Origin: Synechococcus sp. GreenBA-s
Lineage (GTDB): Bacteria; Cyanobacteriota; Cyanobacteriia; PCC-6307; Cyanobiaceae
Assembly: GCF_024345855.1 (NCBI RefSeq)
Contig: NZ_JAGQBX010000003.1
Coordinates: 1-64,000, forward strand
Direction: 5' to 3'
DNA: 64,000 bases
Part shown: one piece after another, positions 1-37,312 of the stretch
How positions within the stretch are numbered: position 1 is the first letter of the stretch
Layout: every line of letters starts with the position of its first letter
Program-made: the position numbers and the translations under genes
The notes under the pieces: generated by a model
Told to the model about the DNA's origin: nothing
Database searches by the model: none
The model's input: only the letters and a program-made list of their open reading frames with translations

Positions 1-71
1 CCACACCAACCCCAACCCCAACCCCTACGCCCTTGTAGGCATGCTATGGCGCACCTCCGCGGTGGCGGGGG

Positions 72-899
72 CTACGCGGTGGGCCTGCGACCGGGGCGTA
101 GCCGGAACCACTGGGTGATCACATATTTGCGGCCCTCCTGCACCGGCAGGGCTTCATGAAGGGTCGCGTGGTTGACGCTGCCGTCGGCGTGGAGGTTGTT
201 CCAGGCCAGGCCCAGGCCTGCCACCGGCGTGAAGCGACGGCCGATCCGTGGAAACGCGGTTTCGCCGCCCAGCTGGACCGCATTGAGATAGACCATTAGC
301 GTCCAGGTGCGCTGTCCTCCAAGACTGGCGTGTTCCTCGTATTCCGCCGTGCCGGGAGTGAACCAGTCGGTGTGCGCACGGAAGCATTGACCGGTGTCAT
401 AGCGCTGGCCCTGCATCGGTTCCGCCAGGGCAGATTCCACCCCGAACAGGGACGTGAAGCGGCGATTAAGCTTCTCAGTCAGCGAGGGGGCCACCTGCGT
501 CAGATGGCAGGTCTGGCTGGTGCGGTAGTCGGCGGCGCCTGTGGTCACGGTGGAGGGCACCAGGGAGCGATCAATCGCATGGATCAGCTCGCTGCATTCC
601 TCGCGGCTCAGCAGCTCGGGGATCTCCAGGATCTGGGCCAGCGGCGTATCGAGTCGCCAAGCCCGTGGCTGATGGGCGGGATCGAGCAGGGGCGTCTCGG
701 CCGGGTCCGTGCAGGCCTCTGGCGGGACTGGATCGCCGCTGGATGTACCCAGCAGCTCTGGCGCCTGCAGTTCCTCCGCGACCTGACGGGCATCGCAGCC
801 GTGGGCGAGAGCGCGTCGCAGCAACTCATGCCGGTCGCAGCCGCGATCGCGATTGAGGCGCAACCAGTCGCGCCACTCGGGGGGGAGAGGGAGAGCCAC
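72..899 (-). CDS. Prolyl-4-hydroxylase-type 2OG-Fe(II) dioxygenase
   Basis: Likely cytoplasmic 2-oxoglutarate- and Fe(II)-dependent dioxygenase of the prolyl 4-hydroxylase superfamily, about 275 aa from a GTG start. The double-stranded beta-helix signature is intact: HTD at about H176/D178, distal H248, and K258 ten residues later to bind 2OG, in the family spacing HxD...H-x9-K. Residues 1-45 form a short helical, Arg-rich N-terminal domain of a kind I associate with bacterial 2OG oxygenases. The open frame runs on to 1271, but that part overlaps the divergent glycosyltransferase and reads as low-complexity, so the GTG at 899 (or a TTG near 935) is preferred. The substrate is unknown. The neighbour is a GlcNAc-transferase-like protein of the family that modifies hydroxyproline in eukaryotic Skp1, so a protein prolyl substrate is the natural guess. 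Family confidence is high, start moderate. Confidence 0.85.
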   Translation of the reverse strand: MALPLPPEWRDWLRLNRDRGCDRHELLRRALAHGCDARQVAEELQAPELLGTSSGDPVPPEACTDPAETPLLDPAHQPRAWRLDTPLAQILEIPELLSREECSELIHAIDRSLVPSTVTTGAADYRTSQTCHLTQVAPSLTEKLNRRFTSLFGVESALAEPMQGQRYDTGQCFRAHTDWFTPGTAEYEEHASLGGQRTWTLMVYLNAVQLGGETAFPRIGRRFTPVAGLGLAWNNLHADGSVNHATLHEALPVQEGRKYVITQWFRLRPGRRPTA

Positions 900-962
900 G
901 CTGCGGCGCCCGGCGACCTGGCTCTTCCCTTCTAGGCTAACCAACCGCGGGCTTGCAACGGC

Positions 963-1943
963 GTGGACACGGCAGAGCTGTTCATCCAGATCGCCAGTTA
1001 TCGCGATCCCCAGCTGGGCCCCACCGTGGCCGATCTGCTCGCCAGGGCCCGCCATCCCGAGCGTCTGCGGCTGGGGATCTGCCTGCAGACCGGCGATGAT
1101 GATGGAGAGGCGTGCGGGGTGGCCTCCCTGCCCGGGGGAGAGGCGCTTCGCGGCGCTGAACTGCGGCTCGACTGCACACCCGCCGAGACCAGCCGCGGCT
1201 GCTGCTGGGCCCGGGCCCGCACGCAGAGGCTCTGGCGGGGGGAGCCCTTCACCCTGCAGATCGACAGCCACATGCGTGTGGTGCCCGACTGGGACGTGGA
1301 GCTGGTGGCGATGTGGCGCCGTTGCGAAGATCCCGCTGCGGTGATCAGCAGCTATCCCAATGCCTTCACGCTACCGGAACAGTGCGACACGGCCCAGCTA
1401 CCGCTGCTGGCGCCCCTCGGCTTCGATGCCCATGACGGCCTGCTGCGCCAGCAGGGGATCAACACGTTTGCCAATCCCCGGGAATTGCCCGATCGGCCCC
1501 TGCCCGGGGCCCTGATCGGAGGCTGCATGCTGTTCGGCCCGGGGCGAATGATCGAGGAGGTTCCCTACGACCCGGATCTTTATTTTTACGGCGAGGAAAT
1601 TTCGCTGGCGCTGCGCCTGTGGACCAGCGGCTTCAATCTCTATAACCCTGATCGCGTTCTGTTCTTTCATCTCTACAAAGCTGCCGGCCTCAGCCACATC
1701 ACCCACTGGGCCGAACACCCCGACTGGGATCAGCTCAACCAGCGGTCCGTTCAGCGGCTGCAAGCCCTGATTCAGGGCGACGGACTGGAGGAGCCCTTTG
1801 GCCTGGGCCGGGCCCGCAGCCTCCAGAGCTGGCAGCAGTGGAGCGGTATCGATCTGATGAGTCGGCAGATCAGCCCGGAAGCCTGGGCAGGATGCTTCCG
1901 CCCGCCGCCGGCCTGCAGCGGAGTAGAGGCGTCTCCGGGCTGA
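963..1943 (+). CDS. GlcNAc-transferase-like glycosyltransferase (PF11397 / GT60-like)
   Basis: A 326-aa glycosyltransferase starting at GTG. The N-terminus (FIQIASYRDPQL at about 7-18, then RHPERLRLGICLQ at about 30-42) matches the opening of the PF11397 GlcNAc family, which contains Dictyostelium Skp1 GlcNAc-transferase Gnt1. A metal/nucleotide-sugar motif, DSH, lies at 101-103 within QIDSHMRVVPDWD. Near the C-terminus come the typical FYGEEISLALRLW block (about 205-217) and a FFHLY segment. No signal peptide or membrane segment is visible, so it should act in the cytosol. It is divergently arranged with the prolyl-hydroxylase-type gene across 63 bp, suggesting shared regulation and a hydroxylation-then-glycosylation pair. 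The acceptor is unknown; cyanobacteria have no Skp1. Family call is strong; donor and acceptor are inference. Confidence 0.85.
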   Translation: MDTAELFIQIASYRDPQLGPTVADLLARARHPERLRLGICLQTGDDDGEACGVASLPGGEALRGAELRLDCTPAETSRGCCWARARTQRLWRGEPFTLQIDSHMRVVPDWDVELVAMWRRCEDPAAVISSYPNAFTLPEQCDTAQLPLLAPLGFDAHDGLLRQQGINTFANPRELPDRPLPGALIGGCMLFGPGRMIEEVPYDPDLYFYGEEISLALRLWTSGFNLYNPDRVLFFHLYKAAGLSHITHWAEHPDWDQLNQRSVQRLQALIQGDGLEEPFGLGRARSLQSWQQWSGIDLMSRQISPEAWAGCFRPPPACSGVEASPG

Positions 1944-33544: not shown

Positions 33545-36500
33545 TCAGGCGCTGAAGTAGCGCGCCTGACTGTGCAGGGCCACCAGGGCGGTGGTGCTTT
33601 GCTCGGGCTCCAGCTGGTCGCTCTCATCCATCGAGAGGCCGATCCGCTCGGCGCCGAGCCAGGCGAGCTGCTGCCGGGAATCCGCCACGTTGGGGCAGGC
33701 GGGATAGCCGAAGGAGTAGCGGCTGCCGCGGTAGCGCTGGGCCAGCAGGTCCCGCAGGGGCATGCCTTCCGGATCGGCGCAGCCGAGCTCGCGGCGGATG
33801 CGGGCGTGCACCCACTCCGCCAGGGCCTCGGCCATCTGCACCCCCAGGCCGTGAAAATAGAGGTAGTCGGTGTACTGGTCGGCCTGGAACAGCGTGCGGG
33901 CGAAGGCACTGGCCGTCTCGCCCATGGTGACCGCCTGCATCGGCAGCACATCGCTGGGCTGGAGCCGTCCATCGCCATCGGCACGGGCATCGCGGTAGAA
34001 GTCGGCGATGCAATAGCGGTTGCCGGAGCGCTGGCGCGGCAGGGCGAAGCGGCCCAGCTCGCGGCTGCGCTCGCTGGGATCGAACACCACCAGGGCGTTG
34101 CCCTCACGCCCGCAGGGGTAGTAGCCGTAGGCCAGCCGCGGGGTGAGCAGCTGCTCCGCCAGGCAGCGGTCCATCCACTGCTGCAGCACCGGCTCGGCCT
34201 TCTCGGCCAGCATCGCCTCGTAGTCCTCGCGCGACTGGCCCTGGGCCTTGCGCAGCTGCCACTGGCCGGCGAACAGGGCGTTGCGATCCAGGTAGGCGAA
34301 CACTTCCGCCAGGGGGATCTGGGATTCATCCAGCACCTGGCTGCCCCAGAAGGGCGGCACCAGGGCAGGCTCCTCGGCCACGGCTTCGGAGCGGTGGTCG
34401 TTGGGCCCTGCGGCGACGGCAGGGGCACCGGCATCGGCACTGGAACTGGCCCCGGGAGCCGTTCCGGCGGGATCCCCGGCCGGCACGCCGGCAGCGTCGT
34501 CTGCCGTAGCGGATACGAGCCCCAGGCCCTCGGGGGCCCCGGCGAGGAAGCCCGCCCCGTTGTCCCAGGTGCCGGCTTCCCGGGCCGCCACGTAGGCGTC
34601 CATGAAGCGCAGGTCGGCGAAGGCATCGCGGCCGTAGATCACCTGGCCCCGGTACACCGAGCGGCAGTCCTTGTTGACGAACCGCGGCGTGAGGGCGGCG
34701 CCGCCGAGGATCACCGGCACGCTGATGCCGGCGTCATTGAAGGCCTCGAGGTTGTCCTTCATGAAGGCGGTGGATTTCACCAGCAGGCCACTCATGGCGA
34801 TGCAGTCGGCGTTGTGCTGGCGCTGGGCCTCGATGATCGCCTCCACCGGCTGCTTGATGCCCAGGTTGATCACCTCATAGCCGTTGTTGGTGAGGATGAT
34901 GTCCACCAGGTTCTTGCCGATGTCGTGCACATCGCCCTTCACCGTGGCGATCAGGAACTTGGCCTTGGCGCTGCGCTGGCCGGCCTCGGCGCCCTCCAGC
35001 GTGTCCATCAGCGGCTCGAGGAAAGCCACGGCCGCCTTCATCGTTTCGGCGCTCTGCAGCACGAAGGGCAGTTGCATCTGGCCGCTACCAAACAGCTCAC
35101 CCACCACCTTCATGCCATCGAGCAGAAAGGTGTTGATGATCTCGAGCGGTTGGTACTGCTCAAGACCGAGCTTCAGTGCATCGTCAAGGCCGATGCGCTC
35201 GCCGTCGATGATGTGCTGCTTGAGCCGCTCCTCGATGGGCAGATCGGCGAGCTGCGGTCCGGAGGCCCGGGCCTCCTTGGCGCTCACCCCCTCGAACAGC
35301 TTGGTGAGTTCGGTGAGCGGGTCGTAGACGCAGACCCCGTTCTCGAAGCGGCGCCGATCGTCGATCAGATCGCGGCACACCTGCTGGTGCTCCTCGCTGA
35401 TCTTCACCAGCGGCAGGATCTTGGCCGGGCTCACGATCGCCGCATCCATGCCGGCCTCACAGCAGTCGTGCAGGAACACGGAATTGAGCACGATGCGGGC
35501 CGCCGGTGAGAGGCCGAAGCTCACATTGCTGACGCCGAGCACCACGTGCACCCCCGGCAGATCGGTGCGAATGCGGCGGATGGCCTGCACCGTGGCCAGG
35601 GCATTTTCGCGGTCCTCCTCGATGCCGGTGGAGATCGGCAGGGCCAGGGGGTCGTAGAAGATCTCGTGGGCCGGGATGCCGAACTCCAGGGCATCGCGGT
35701 AGGCGCGCTGGGCGATCACGAACTTGCGCTCGGCCGTGCGGGCCATGCCCTCCTCATCGATGGTGCCCACCACCACGCCGGCGCCATAGGTCTTGGCCAG
35801 CTCCAGCACCTTGAAGAAGCGCTCGTCGCCGTCTTCGTAGTTGGTGGAGTTGAGGATGCACTTGCCGCCGGCCACCTTGAGGCCGGCCTCCATCTTCTGC
35901 CACTCGGTGGAATCGAGCATCAGCGGCAGGTTCACGTTCGTGACCAGCCGGCTCACCAGTTCGCGCATGTCGCGCTCGCCGTCGCGTCCCACATAGTCGA
36001 CGTTCACGTCGAGCACGTGGGCGTTCTCCTTCACCTGGCCGCGGGCCACGGCCACCAGGCCGTCCCAGTCTTCCTCGGCCAGCAGCTCGCGCACCTTCTT
36101 GGAGCCGCTGGCATTGAGGCGCTCGCCGATGATCAGGAAGGAGTTGTCCTGCAGATAGGGCGTGGTGCCGTAGATCGAGGCGGCGGCAGGCTCATAGGCC
36201 AGGGCCGGGCGCGGATCCTCAAGGCTTGCCCGCAGCTCCGGTGTACGCACGCGGCGCTCGGCAGGTTTCATCTCCACCGCCAGCTCCGCCAGGGCGCCGA
36301 TGTGGGCCGGCGTGGTGCCACAGCAGCCGCCGATCACCTGCACGCCGAGGTCTTCCACGAAGTGCAGCAGCTGCATCTTCATCTCCAGCGGCGTGAGCCG
36401 GTAGTGGGCCAACCCGCCGATGTTCTCCGGCAGACCCGCATTGGGGATGCAGCTCACCACAAACGGGCTGTGCTCGCTCAGGTAGCGGATGTGCTCCTTC

Positions 36501-37312
36501 ATCTGCTCCGGGCCCGTGGCGCAGTTGAGACCGAGCACATCGATGGGGAACGGCTCGAGGATCGCCACCACTGCGGCGATGTCCGAGCCCACCAGCATCG
36601 TGCCGGTGGTCTCCATGGTCACGCTCACCATCAGCGGCCGCCGCTGGCCGGTCCTGGCAAAGGCCTGCTCGATGCCCTGCAGCGCCGCCTTGATCTGCAG
36701 CACGTCCTGGCAGGTCTCGACGATGAACAGGTCCACGTCGCCGGCGATCAGGCCCTCGGCCTGCTCAGCGAAGGAGTCGCGCAGCTCATCGAAGCCCACG
36801 TGGCCCAGGGTGGGCAGCTTGGTGGTGGGGCCCATGGAGCCCGCCACGAAGCGGGGCTTCTCGGGGGTGCTGTAGGCATCCGCCATCTCCCGCGCCAGCT
36901 CGGCGGCCCGCTGGTTGATGGCGAAGGCCTGGTCCTGCAGGTCGTATTCCGCCAGCACGATCGAGGCCGCCCCGAAGGTGTCGGTCTCGATCACGTCGGC
37001 ACCCACCTCCAGGAACTGGCGGTGCACCGCCTGCACCGCATCGGGGCGGGTGAACACCAGCTGCTCGTTGCAGCCCTCCAGGGCCGGCCCGCCGAAGTCC
37101 TCGGCCGTCAGGTCCATCTGCTGCAGCGAGGTGCCCGTGGCGCCGTCGAACACCAGCACCGGCCGCTCGGGGCTGTGCAGCCGCTCCAGGAAGCCCATCC
37201 GCGCCGGGCGCTCCCGGGCCGCTGGGGCGGCGGCCGGTGCGCCTGTGGCCTTCTCACTGGGGTTCACGCCAGTGGTGACGGGGCCCCTGGGGGCGGCGGG
37301 GGTGCGGGTCAT
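33545..37312 (-). CDS. metH: Cobalamin-dependent methionine synthase
   Basis: A 1255-aa modular enzyme transferring methyl from 5-methyl-THF to homocysteine through cobalamin. Order: homocysteine/zinc domain (about 40-340; [10 protein letters not shown] and [11 protein letters not shown] carry the Cys ligands), pterin domain (about 370-640; [26 protein letters not shown]), cap and B12-binding domain (DVHDIGKNL with the lower-ligand His near 785), then the AdoMet reactivation domain (about 1000-1250; PACPNVADS). An Ala/Pro/Gly-rich insert near 915-985 separates the B12 and reactivation domains. The first 38 residues are low-complexity; M39 (GFLERLHS) is another possible start. The ATG overlaps the ilvE stop by one base (TGATG). 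Confidence 0.97.

Follow-up and report, generated by a model that had tools for sequence, protein, structure and literature searches.

In the 2.85-Mb genome of a freshwater picocyanobacterium from the same genus as Vulcanococcus limneticus, two genes at the beginning of contig C23 encode a putative prolyl 4-hydroxylase (P4H) and a glycosyltransferase (GT) of the PF11397 family. What could these enzymes modify? A sequence-only reading of the window, the 64,000-nucleotide stretch that begins this contig, had proposed that they hydroxylate and then glycosylate a protein target, by analogy with the oxygen-sensing modification of Skp1 in protists and with the hydroxylation of EF-Tu in Pseudomonas.

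The hydroxylase-glycosyltransferase gene pair and the adjacent Thr-Pro tail

The P4H and GT genes are both intact, and their starts are 63 bp apart (Table 1). The P4H gene has a GTG start at positions 897-899 and a TAG stop at 72-74 on the minus strand. The divergent order of the pair is kept in four other genomes (G003, G006, G503 and G623) and in SAR86. Compared with V. limneticus, the P4H gene contains ten synonymous and one nonsynonymous codon differences, and the GT gene nine synonymous and seven nonsynonymous ones. The divergent pair is also present in a third Vulcanococcus, with protein identity of 59-67%. That the pair is 97.6% identical to its V. limneticus counterpart, most of the differences being synonymous, and that it recurs in the third Vulcanococcus, argues that the pair is not a product of chance. 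No signal peptide was recognized by eye at the N terminus of either protein, hence both enzymes should be cytoplasmic.

Table 1. Coordinates, strands and supporting evidence for the gene pair in the window and for the viral cassettes.
Feature	Position	Strand	Evidence
End of (Thr-Pro)n tail, TPTPTPTPL*	1..38	+	direct reading
Prolyl 4-hydroxylase (P4H, P0002), 2OG-Fe(II) oxygenase	72..899	-	PF13640, PDB matches, model
Divergent intergenic region, 63 bp	900..962	.	sequence
PF11397 (GT60-like) glycosyltransferase (GT), DxH motif	963..1943	+	PF11397, alignment, model
Viral cassettes	L259:57-5801, L294:5350-8838, L282:1-4208, L417, L438:1550-5511	one strand each in L259/L294/L282	

The P4H gene is followed, at a distance of 33 bp between the stop codons, by the end of a convergent gene. 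The window begins at the contig end within the (Thr-Pro)n coding repeat of this gene, so that only the last residues can be read (bases 3-38). In V. limneticus (L010/L012) the tail gene is intact (L010:10652-12721), with its X-Pro end just beyond P4H. The 689-aa product has a signal-peptide-like start (judged by eye), a FecR-like region, a beta-rich-looking middle part and an X-Pro tail. A Pfam search of this protein gave no match; the FecR-like label comes from similarity to neighbors matching PF04773. The tail consists of 58 X-Pro units, in which X is Thr in 50 cases, Ser in six, and Arg and Leu in one each. All four Thr codons and all four Pro codons occur in it, and this free use of synonymous codons indicates that the peptide is what is kept. 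Since the repeat unit is a hexamer, the length of the tail can vary without a change of frame, providing a simple route to length variation. In the source genome, contig C66 encodes the tail protein at 99% identity as far as the repeat, within which the contig breaks off; from synteny, rather than from sequence, we infer that C23:1 and C66:1 adjoin and that the assembly has split the tail gene over two contigs.

The tail-protein gene is followed by a gene for a CHASE2-cyclase. The block formed by the GT, P4H, tail-protein and cyclase genes is 97.6% identical between the two species, compared to 83-93% at the other compared loci, and the flanks of the block differ, which suggests that its genes were transferred together. 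No plasmid match to the GT-P4H-tail cassette was found. Elsewhere in the window, an X-Pro match at 34412-34455 on the minus strand was dismissed, as it lies in the wrong frame of an apparent methionine synthase gene (33545-37312).

Sequence and structural models of the hydroxylase

The P4H protein matches PF13640 with a score above the cut-off (E=1.6e-12). Its best sequence match in the PDB is the P4H from Bacillus anthracis (E=6e-24); E-values of the P4H matches span 6e-24 to 4e-8, and no PHD-type enzyme was found among the matches of this search. The iron- and 2OG-binding residues H176-x-D178, H248 and K258 are present and invariant in 27 relatives, which agrees with the initial assignment of an intact 2OG-Fe(II) prolyl hydroxylase. 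The N terminus forms a three-helix domain of approximately 45 aa (W..W...N..RGC).

Models of both proteins were built by AlphaFold2, using alignments of 27 sequences each, and compared with the PDB by fold searches. The best fold match of the P4H model (pLDDT 86.7) is 3gze, the structure of the Chlamydomonas P4H in complex with (Ser-Pro)5, followed by 2jij/2jig and the B. anthracis P4H. The PBCV-1 P4H structure (5c5t) is ranked 22nd, the Pseudomonas EF-Tu hydroxylase 35th-42nd, and Dictyostelium PhyA only 48th. Judging from the model, P4H is an algal/collagen-type rather than a PHD/PhyA-type enzyme, and the suggested analogies to PhyA and to the EF-Tu hydroxylase are not borne out by this ranking. 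Tyr140 of the algal enzyme Cr-P4H touches the substrate proline (PMC9676403). This substrate-contacting tyrosine is absent from P4H, which has Phe173 three residues before the first iron ligand. Phenylalanine is also found here in most picocyanobacterial relatives, and tyrosine in SAR86 and in L137/L138. The substitution makes substrate binding less certain and leaves the fold assignment unaffected.

Some relatives (L131:6210-7685, L133:6118-7656, and also L132, L134 and L136) are longer, at about 500 aa. They have an additional domain at the N terminus with an HxD...H-like motif of its own, and are possibly tandem dioxygenases. An N-terminal domain common to P4H and the GT-oxygenase fusion described below was considered and rejected: the single-sequence match was weak (E=3.6e-4), and an HMM of the P4H N terminus missed the fusion at E<1e-3.

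Sequence and structural models of the glycosyltransferase

The divergent gene had been identified as PF11397/GT60-like, and the PF11397 domain is confirmed (E=5e-59; 200.9 bits against a curated cut-off of 21). The GT is a single-domain protein of 326 aa with the motif D101-S-H103, in which D101 and H103 are invariant in 27 relatives. DxH in place of DxD is characteristic of GT27 and GT60 (PMC7185993). The 50 best fold matches of the GT model (pLDDT 92.4) are all polypeptide GalNAc-transferases, with TM-scores of about 0.5-0.6 normalized by query length, and the fold search places the enzyme in the GT-A fold near GT27. In the GT60 family, the Trypanosoma cruzi enzyme makes GlcNAc-alpha-Thr on mucins (PMC9472816). 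A small-molecule oxygenase or a lipid or glycan transferase would have spoken against a protein target; instead, both models match polypeptide-modifying enzymes, and P4H and GT look like protein modifiers by this comparison.

Conservation of the pair in bacteria

Among 400 genomes of the family Cyanobiaceae, PF11397 was found in 33, the P0002-type P4H in 41, and both in 26. All six genera with the GT are among the nine genera with the P4H, of 59 genera in total (p=2e-6); this count is safer than the count of genomes, since the genomes are related. The two genes are adjacent in six of the 26 genomes, being divergent in five (G000, G003, G006, G503, G623) and convergent in G733. The remaining 20 belong to the genus g24, and in all of them the genes are unlinked. 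The GT-P4H association within g24 is uninformative, as the GT is present in 15 and the P4H in 18 of its 19 near-complete genomes. In SAR86, a PF11397 GT and a P4H have the same divergent layout as in the window. No long X-Pro array was found in the SAR86 genomes, and none in the short flanks available for G003, G503, G623 and G733.

The single-copy P4H gene of most examined picocyanobacteria is located between gatB and coaE. In the source genome this gatB flank carries a GT-oxygenase fusion gene instead of P4H, and in G733 the GT gene has come to lie beside P4H at the gatB-coaE site. The gatB-P4H-coaE locus is conserved in L109, L111, L128, L131, L135 and L142, several of these being near genes for FecR-like proteins and CHASE2 adenylate cyclases. 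The (Thr-Pro)n cassette likewise has FecR-like and CHASE2-cyclase genes next to P4H; there may be a regulatory link.

Fusions of the GT to a 2OG oxygenase were identified in three genomes, namely the source genome, another cyanobacterium, in which GT, AhpC-type and 2OG domains form one protein, and an alphaproteobacterium, with a 2067-aa protein (L014:6045-12248) that combines Glyco_trans_1_2, three PF11397 and two 2OG-oxygenase domains. Other PF11397 fusions include glycosyltransferase or methyltransferase domains. The adjacency in six genomes, the SAR86 layout and the fusions show that the linkage is conserved. On the GT tree the association with an oxygenase changes about five or six times, indicating that it was gained or lost repeatedly. 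The PF11397 genes at L129:2137-2589 and at the GT loci of G238 and G625 look decayed or split, with stops and frame breaks, which suggests GT loss in some lineages. A decayed GT lies divergently beside P4H in G544.

The second locus and X-Pro arrays in the source genome

The fusion gene of the source genome is located on contig C9, where an FkbM methyltransferase gene is followed by a gene for the 632-aa PF11397-2OG oxygenase fusion (P0003) and, 1.3 kb further on, by a gene for an X-Pro protein. The latter contains 48 X-Pro units of the (PAPAPE) kind, almost without Ser or Thr, and then Asp/Ser repeats. By sequence, no convincing PDB relative was found for the oxygenase part of P0003. A pattern search of the 2.85-Mb genome revealed long Pro-X runs only at C9:51020-51303 and C66:1-218, all other runs being short. 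Both long arrays therefore fall at the two GT/oxygenase loci of the genome; if they were randomly placed, the chance of both lying within 2 kb of the two GT loci would be about 8e-6.

Some cyanobacteria have many X-Pro arrays distant from any GT, and X-Pro arrays were found near five of 50 bacterial GT loci and in none of 20 random windows, a difference not significant by itself. Individual loci include a PF13640 gene about 0.5 kb from a gene for an exported-looking protein with 24 Pro-Ala-type units in cyanobacterium G383 (L122:6911-7873), with no GT; a PT-rich glycoside-hydrolase-like protein gene directly followed by two PF11397 genes in Sphingomonas (L025:4381-10474); and, in Hyphomicrobium, a PF11397 gene at a distance of 2 kb from the gene for an RTX protein that contains 29 Pro-X units (L034:10992-15044).

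Pro-Thr arrays, glycosyltransferases and oxygenases in viral contigs

PF11397 relatives are encoded by at least 571 stretches in IMG/VR. Among the best 80 of these, eight have (Pro-Thr/Ser) arrays of at least eight units within 6 kb, compared to none of 154 control loci (p=1.5e-4). The reverse analysis used 190 viral loci selected, among the matches listed, solely by (Pro-Thr) arrays of at least 9 or at least 14 units; the 154 controls were selected by a random 15-mer (34 loci) or by (Pro-Ala) arrays of at least 9 units (120 loci). Among the matches listed, PF11397 is present in 13 of the 190 loci (p=4e-4) and a PF13640-type oxygenase in 20 (p=6e-6), and both are absent from all 154 controls. 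The GT and the 2OG oxygenase co-occur in seven of the 190 and are associated inside this set of listed matches (p=6e-5). After clustering of near-identical contigs, 170 clusters of listed matches include 12 with the GT, 15 with the oxygenase and six with both, compared to none in 140 control clusters. The viral loci are a convenience sample, and the control contigs may differ from them in phage type.

An HMM of the cyanobacterial P4H detected no oxygenase beside the viral GTs. A phage-type oxygenase query brought the count up to 20 in the Pro-Thr loci and to only one of 80 in the GT set, so that 79 of the best 80 of at least 571 GT-bearing loci have no recognized oxygenase within 6 kb. The cassettes of L259, L294 and L282 encode on one strand, in this order, a PT-repeat virion protein, a small Cys-rich protein in some cases, a 2OG oxygenase, a radical SAM/SPASM protein and the GT. 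L417 has a similar arrangement, and L438 lacks the radical SAM gene. For the PT protein of L438, the search gave a match to a minor tail protein family; the L282 oxygenase gave one to the B. anthracis P4H (E=8e-28). By sequence, these phage operons look like a tail-protein modification cassette.

Proposed function and alternative explanations

P4H and GT probably modify exported or virion proteins by hydroxylating and O-glycosylating their X-Pro repeat tails. What we infer about catalysis, substrate, sugar, linkage, sequence of steps and timing is as follows. The X-Pro tail, mainly Thr-Pro and Ser-Pro, would be extended and accessible and could be modified in the cytoplasm before or during export. 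Hydroxylation of the repeat prolines would be the task of P4H. The PF11397 enzyme would glycosylate that repeat with a sugar of the alpha-HexNAc type, attached to the newly formed hydroxyproline (Hyp) or to a neighboring Thr or Ser. In the source strain, the FecR-like exported protein of the convergent gene would provide the likeliest substrate with its (Thr-Pro)n tail, and the GT-oxygenase fusion may play the same role for the (Pro-Ala-Pro-Glu)n protein. Such modification could turn the tail into a rigid rod coated with sugar, a bacterial equivalent of mucins or of the hydroxyproline-rich glycoproteins of algae.

As there is hardly any Ser or Thr in (PAPAPE)n, Hyp would be its natural acceptor, but (Thr-Pro)n could receive the sugar on Hyp or on Thr. 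In phages having Pro-Thr arrays and a GT, linkage to Thr or Ser is favored where there is no oxygenase beside the GT. For the window pair, a Hyp-linked and a Thr/Ser-linked sugar seem about equally probable. Several observations weigh against the proposed function. P4H and GT are separable, as shown by the unlinked genes in 20 g24 genomes and by most viral GTs, which have no recognized oxygenase nearby. The lack of long X-Pro arrays in SAR86 and in the short flanks of G003, G503, G623 and G733, the cyanobacterial arrays distant from any GT, the bacterial comparison that is not significant by itself, Phe173 in place of Tyr140 and the splitting of the tail gene over two contigs point the same way. 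It is conceivable, though rather unlikely, that the two enzymes act independently, GT glycosylating Thr and Ser of Pro-Thr repeats directly with no need of Hyp, and P4H hydroxylating prolines for rod stiffness or for tuning of GT access. Consistent with this, the nearest GT folds are Ser/Thr-directed polypeptide GalNAc-transferases, T. cruzi GT60 modifies Thr of mucins, and six of the 13 phage Pro-Thr loci with a GT (among the matches listed) and most GT loci have no recognized oxygenase. However, the fusions and the 2OG-GT association in Pro-Thr loci (p=6e-5) suggest more than independent action, and the (Pro-Ala-Pro-Glu)n array almost lacks the Ser/Thr acceptor.

The mark envisaged by the sequence-only reading is improbable; in it, a cytosolic protein would be hydroxylated at one proline and receive a GlcNAc cap there, signaling oxygen or metabolic state. 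PhyA and Gnt1 belong to the same two broad families, and the closely matching B. anthracis P4H has a structure (5v7y) titled as interacting with and modifying EF-Tu. Nevertheless, PhyA and the Pseudomonas enzyme are poorer fold matches (ranks 35-48) than algal P4H, the genomic context consists of X-Pro repeat proteins and phage tail proteins, and the patchy distribution of the pair (of 400 genomes, 33 have the GT and 41 the P4H) is not that of a core regulator; nothing found here favors oxygen sensing. What stands of this proposal is a bacterial hydroxylation and glycosylation pair with a protein target, consistent with the conserved linkage, the fusions and the protein-modifier folds; what does not is the regulator of the Skp1 or EF-Tu style. 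Slightly less probable still are small molecules, lipids or glycans such as O-antigen as substrates, with the repeat-protein neighbors being incidental. The versatility of 2OG oxygenases, the FkbM methyltransferase gene adjoining the fusion gene, and the glycosyltransferase or methyltransferase domains in other PF11397 fusions could be explained in this way, but both folds are those of polypeptide-modifying enzymes, and the enrichment with Pro-Thr arrays, seen in both directions in the viral contigs, would be left unaccounted for. The window pair seems to belong to a module for the modification of X-Pro repeats that is common to bacteria and phages, and does not look like a bacterial Skp1 system.

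Comparison with known systems

The proposed module resembles the pathway of algal and plant hydroxyproline-rich glycoproteins, with Chlamydomonas P4H-1 acting on (Ser-Pro)n, in the P4H fold, the catalytic residues, the putative (Thr/Ser-Pro)n substrate, the linkage of a long X-Pro repeat in an exported-type protein to P4H and GT, and the putative hydroxylation and O-glycosylation of a cell-surface rod. It differs from that pathway in three respects: the GT is GT60-like instead of being a Hyp-arabinosyl- or galactosyltransferase; both enzymes, in which no signal peptide is evident, would be active in the cytoplasm; and Phe takes the place of Tyr140. With the PBCV-1 system it shares a microbial P4H whose putative substrates are Pro-X repeats encoded by the same genome; that virus, however, infects a eukaryotic alga, and we know of no GT60 partner of its enzyme.

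The combination of a prolyl hydroxylase and a GT60-family enzyme in the cytosol also occurs in the Skp1 PhyA-Gnt1 pathway of Dictyostelium and Toxoplasma. To our knowledge, Skp1 is absent from bacteria; moreover, unlike in that pathway, the P4H is of the algal/collagen type, and there is no sign of a regulatory substrate or of oxygen sensing in this locus. The enzymes of the Skp1 pathway are often fused in protists (PMC8724618). The GT shares its fold, the DxH motif and the association with Thr/Pro-rich repeats with GT27 polypeptide GalNAc-transferases and with T. cruzi OGNT (GT60), and differs from them in being a bacterial, oxygenase-paired single domain without a lectin domain.

Hydroxyproline- and mucin-type O-glycosylation are usually regarded as eukaryotic, and the decoration of Pro-Thr repeats with both hydroxyl groups and sugar has been described mainly from algae, plants and protists. 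A literature search, with incomplete coverage, found no description of a bacterial P4H-GT pair of this type. We tentatively suggest, at somewhat less than even probability, that (Pro-Thr/Ser)n repeats are the target of a mobile modification system that is widespread in bacteria and phages. In this system, a 2OG hydroxylase and a GT60-like transferase, joined by a radical SAM protein in some phages, may decorate the tails of surface proteins and the linkers of phage tail proteins. The sugar would be Hyp-linked in some members at least, and a common ancestry with the Hyp- and mucin-type O-glycosylation of eukaryotes is conceivable. The substrate question left by the annotations '2OG oxygenase' and 'GlcNAc transferase' becomes testable. 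If the proposed function is true, bacteria and phages would have their own form of this glycosylation, its enzymes and substrate being encoded by neighboring genes and offering small enzymes for making glycosylated Pro-Thr rods; this would explain the phage Pro-Thr linkers beside glycosyltransferases and oxygenases, and would bear on the origin of GT60/GT27 and of Hyp glycosylation.
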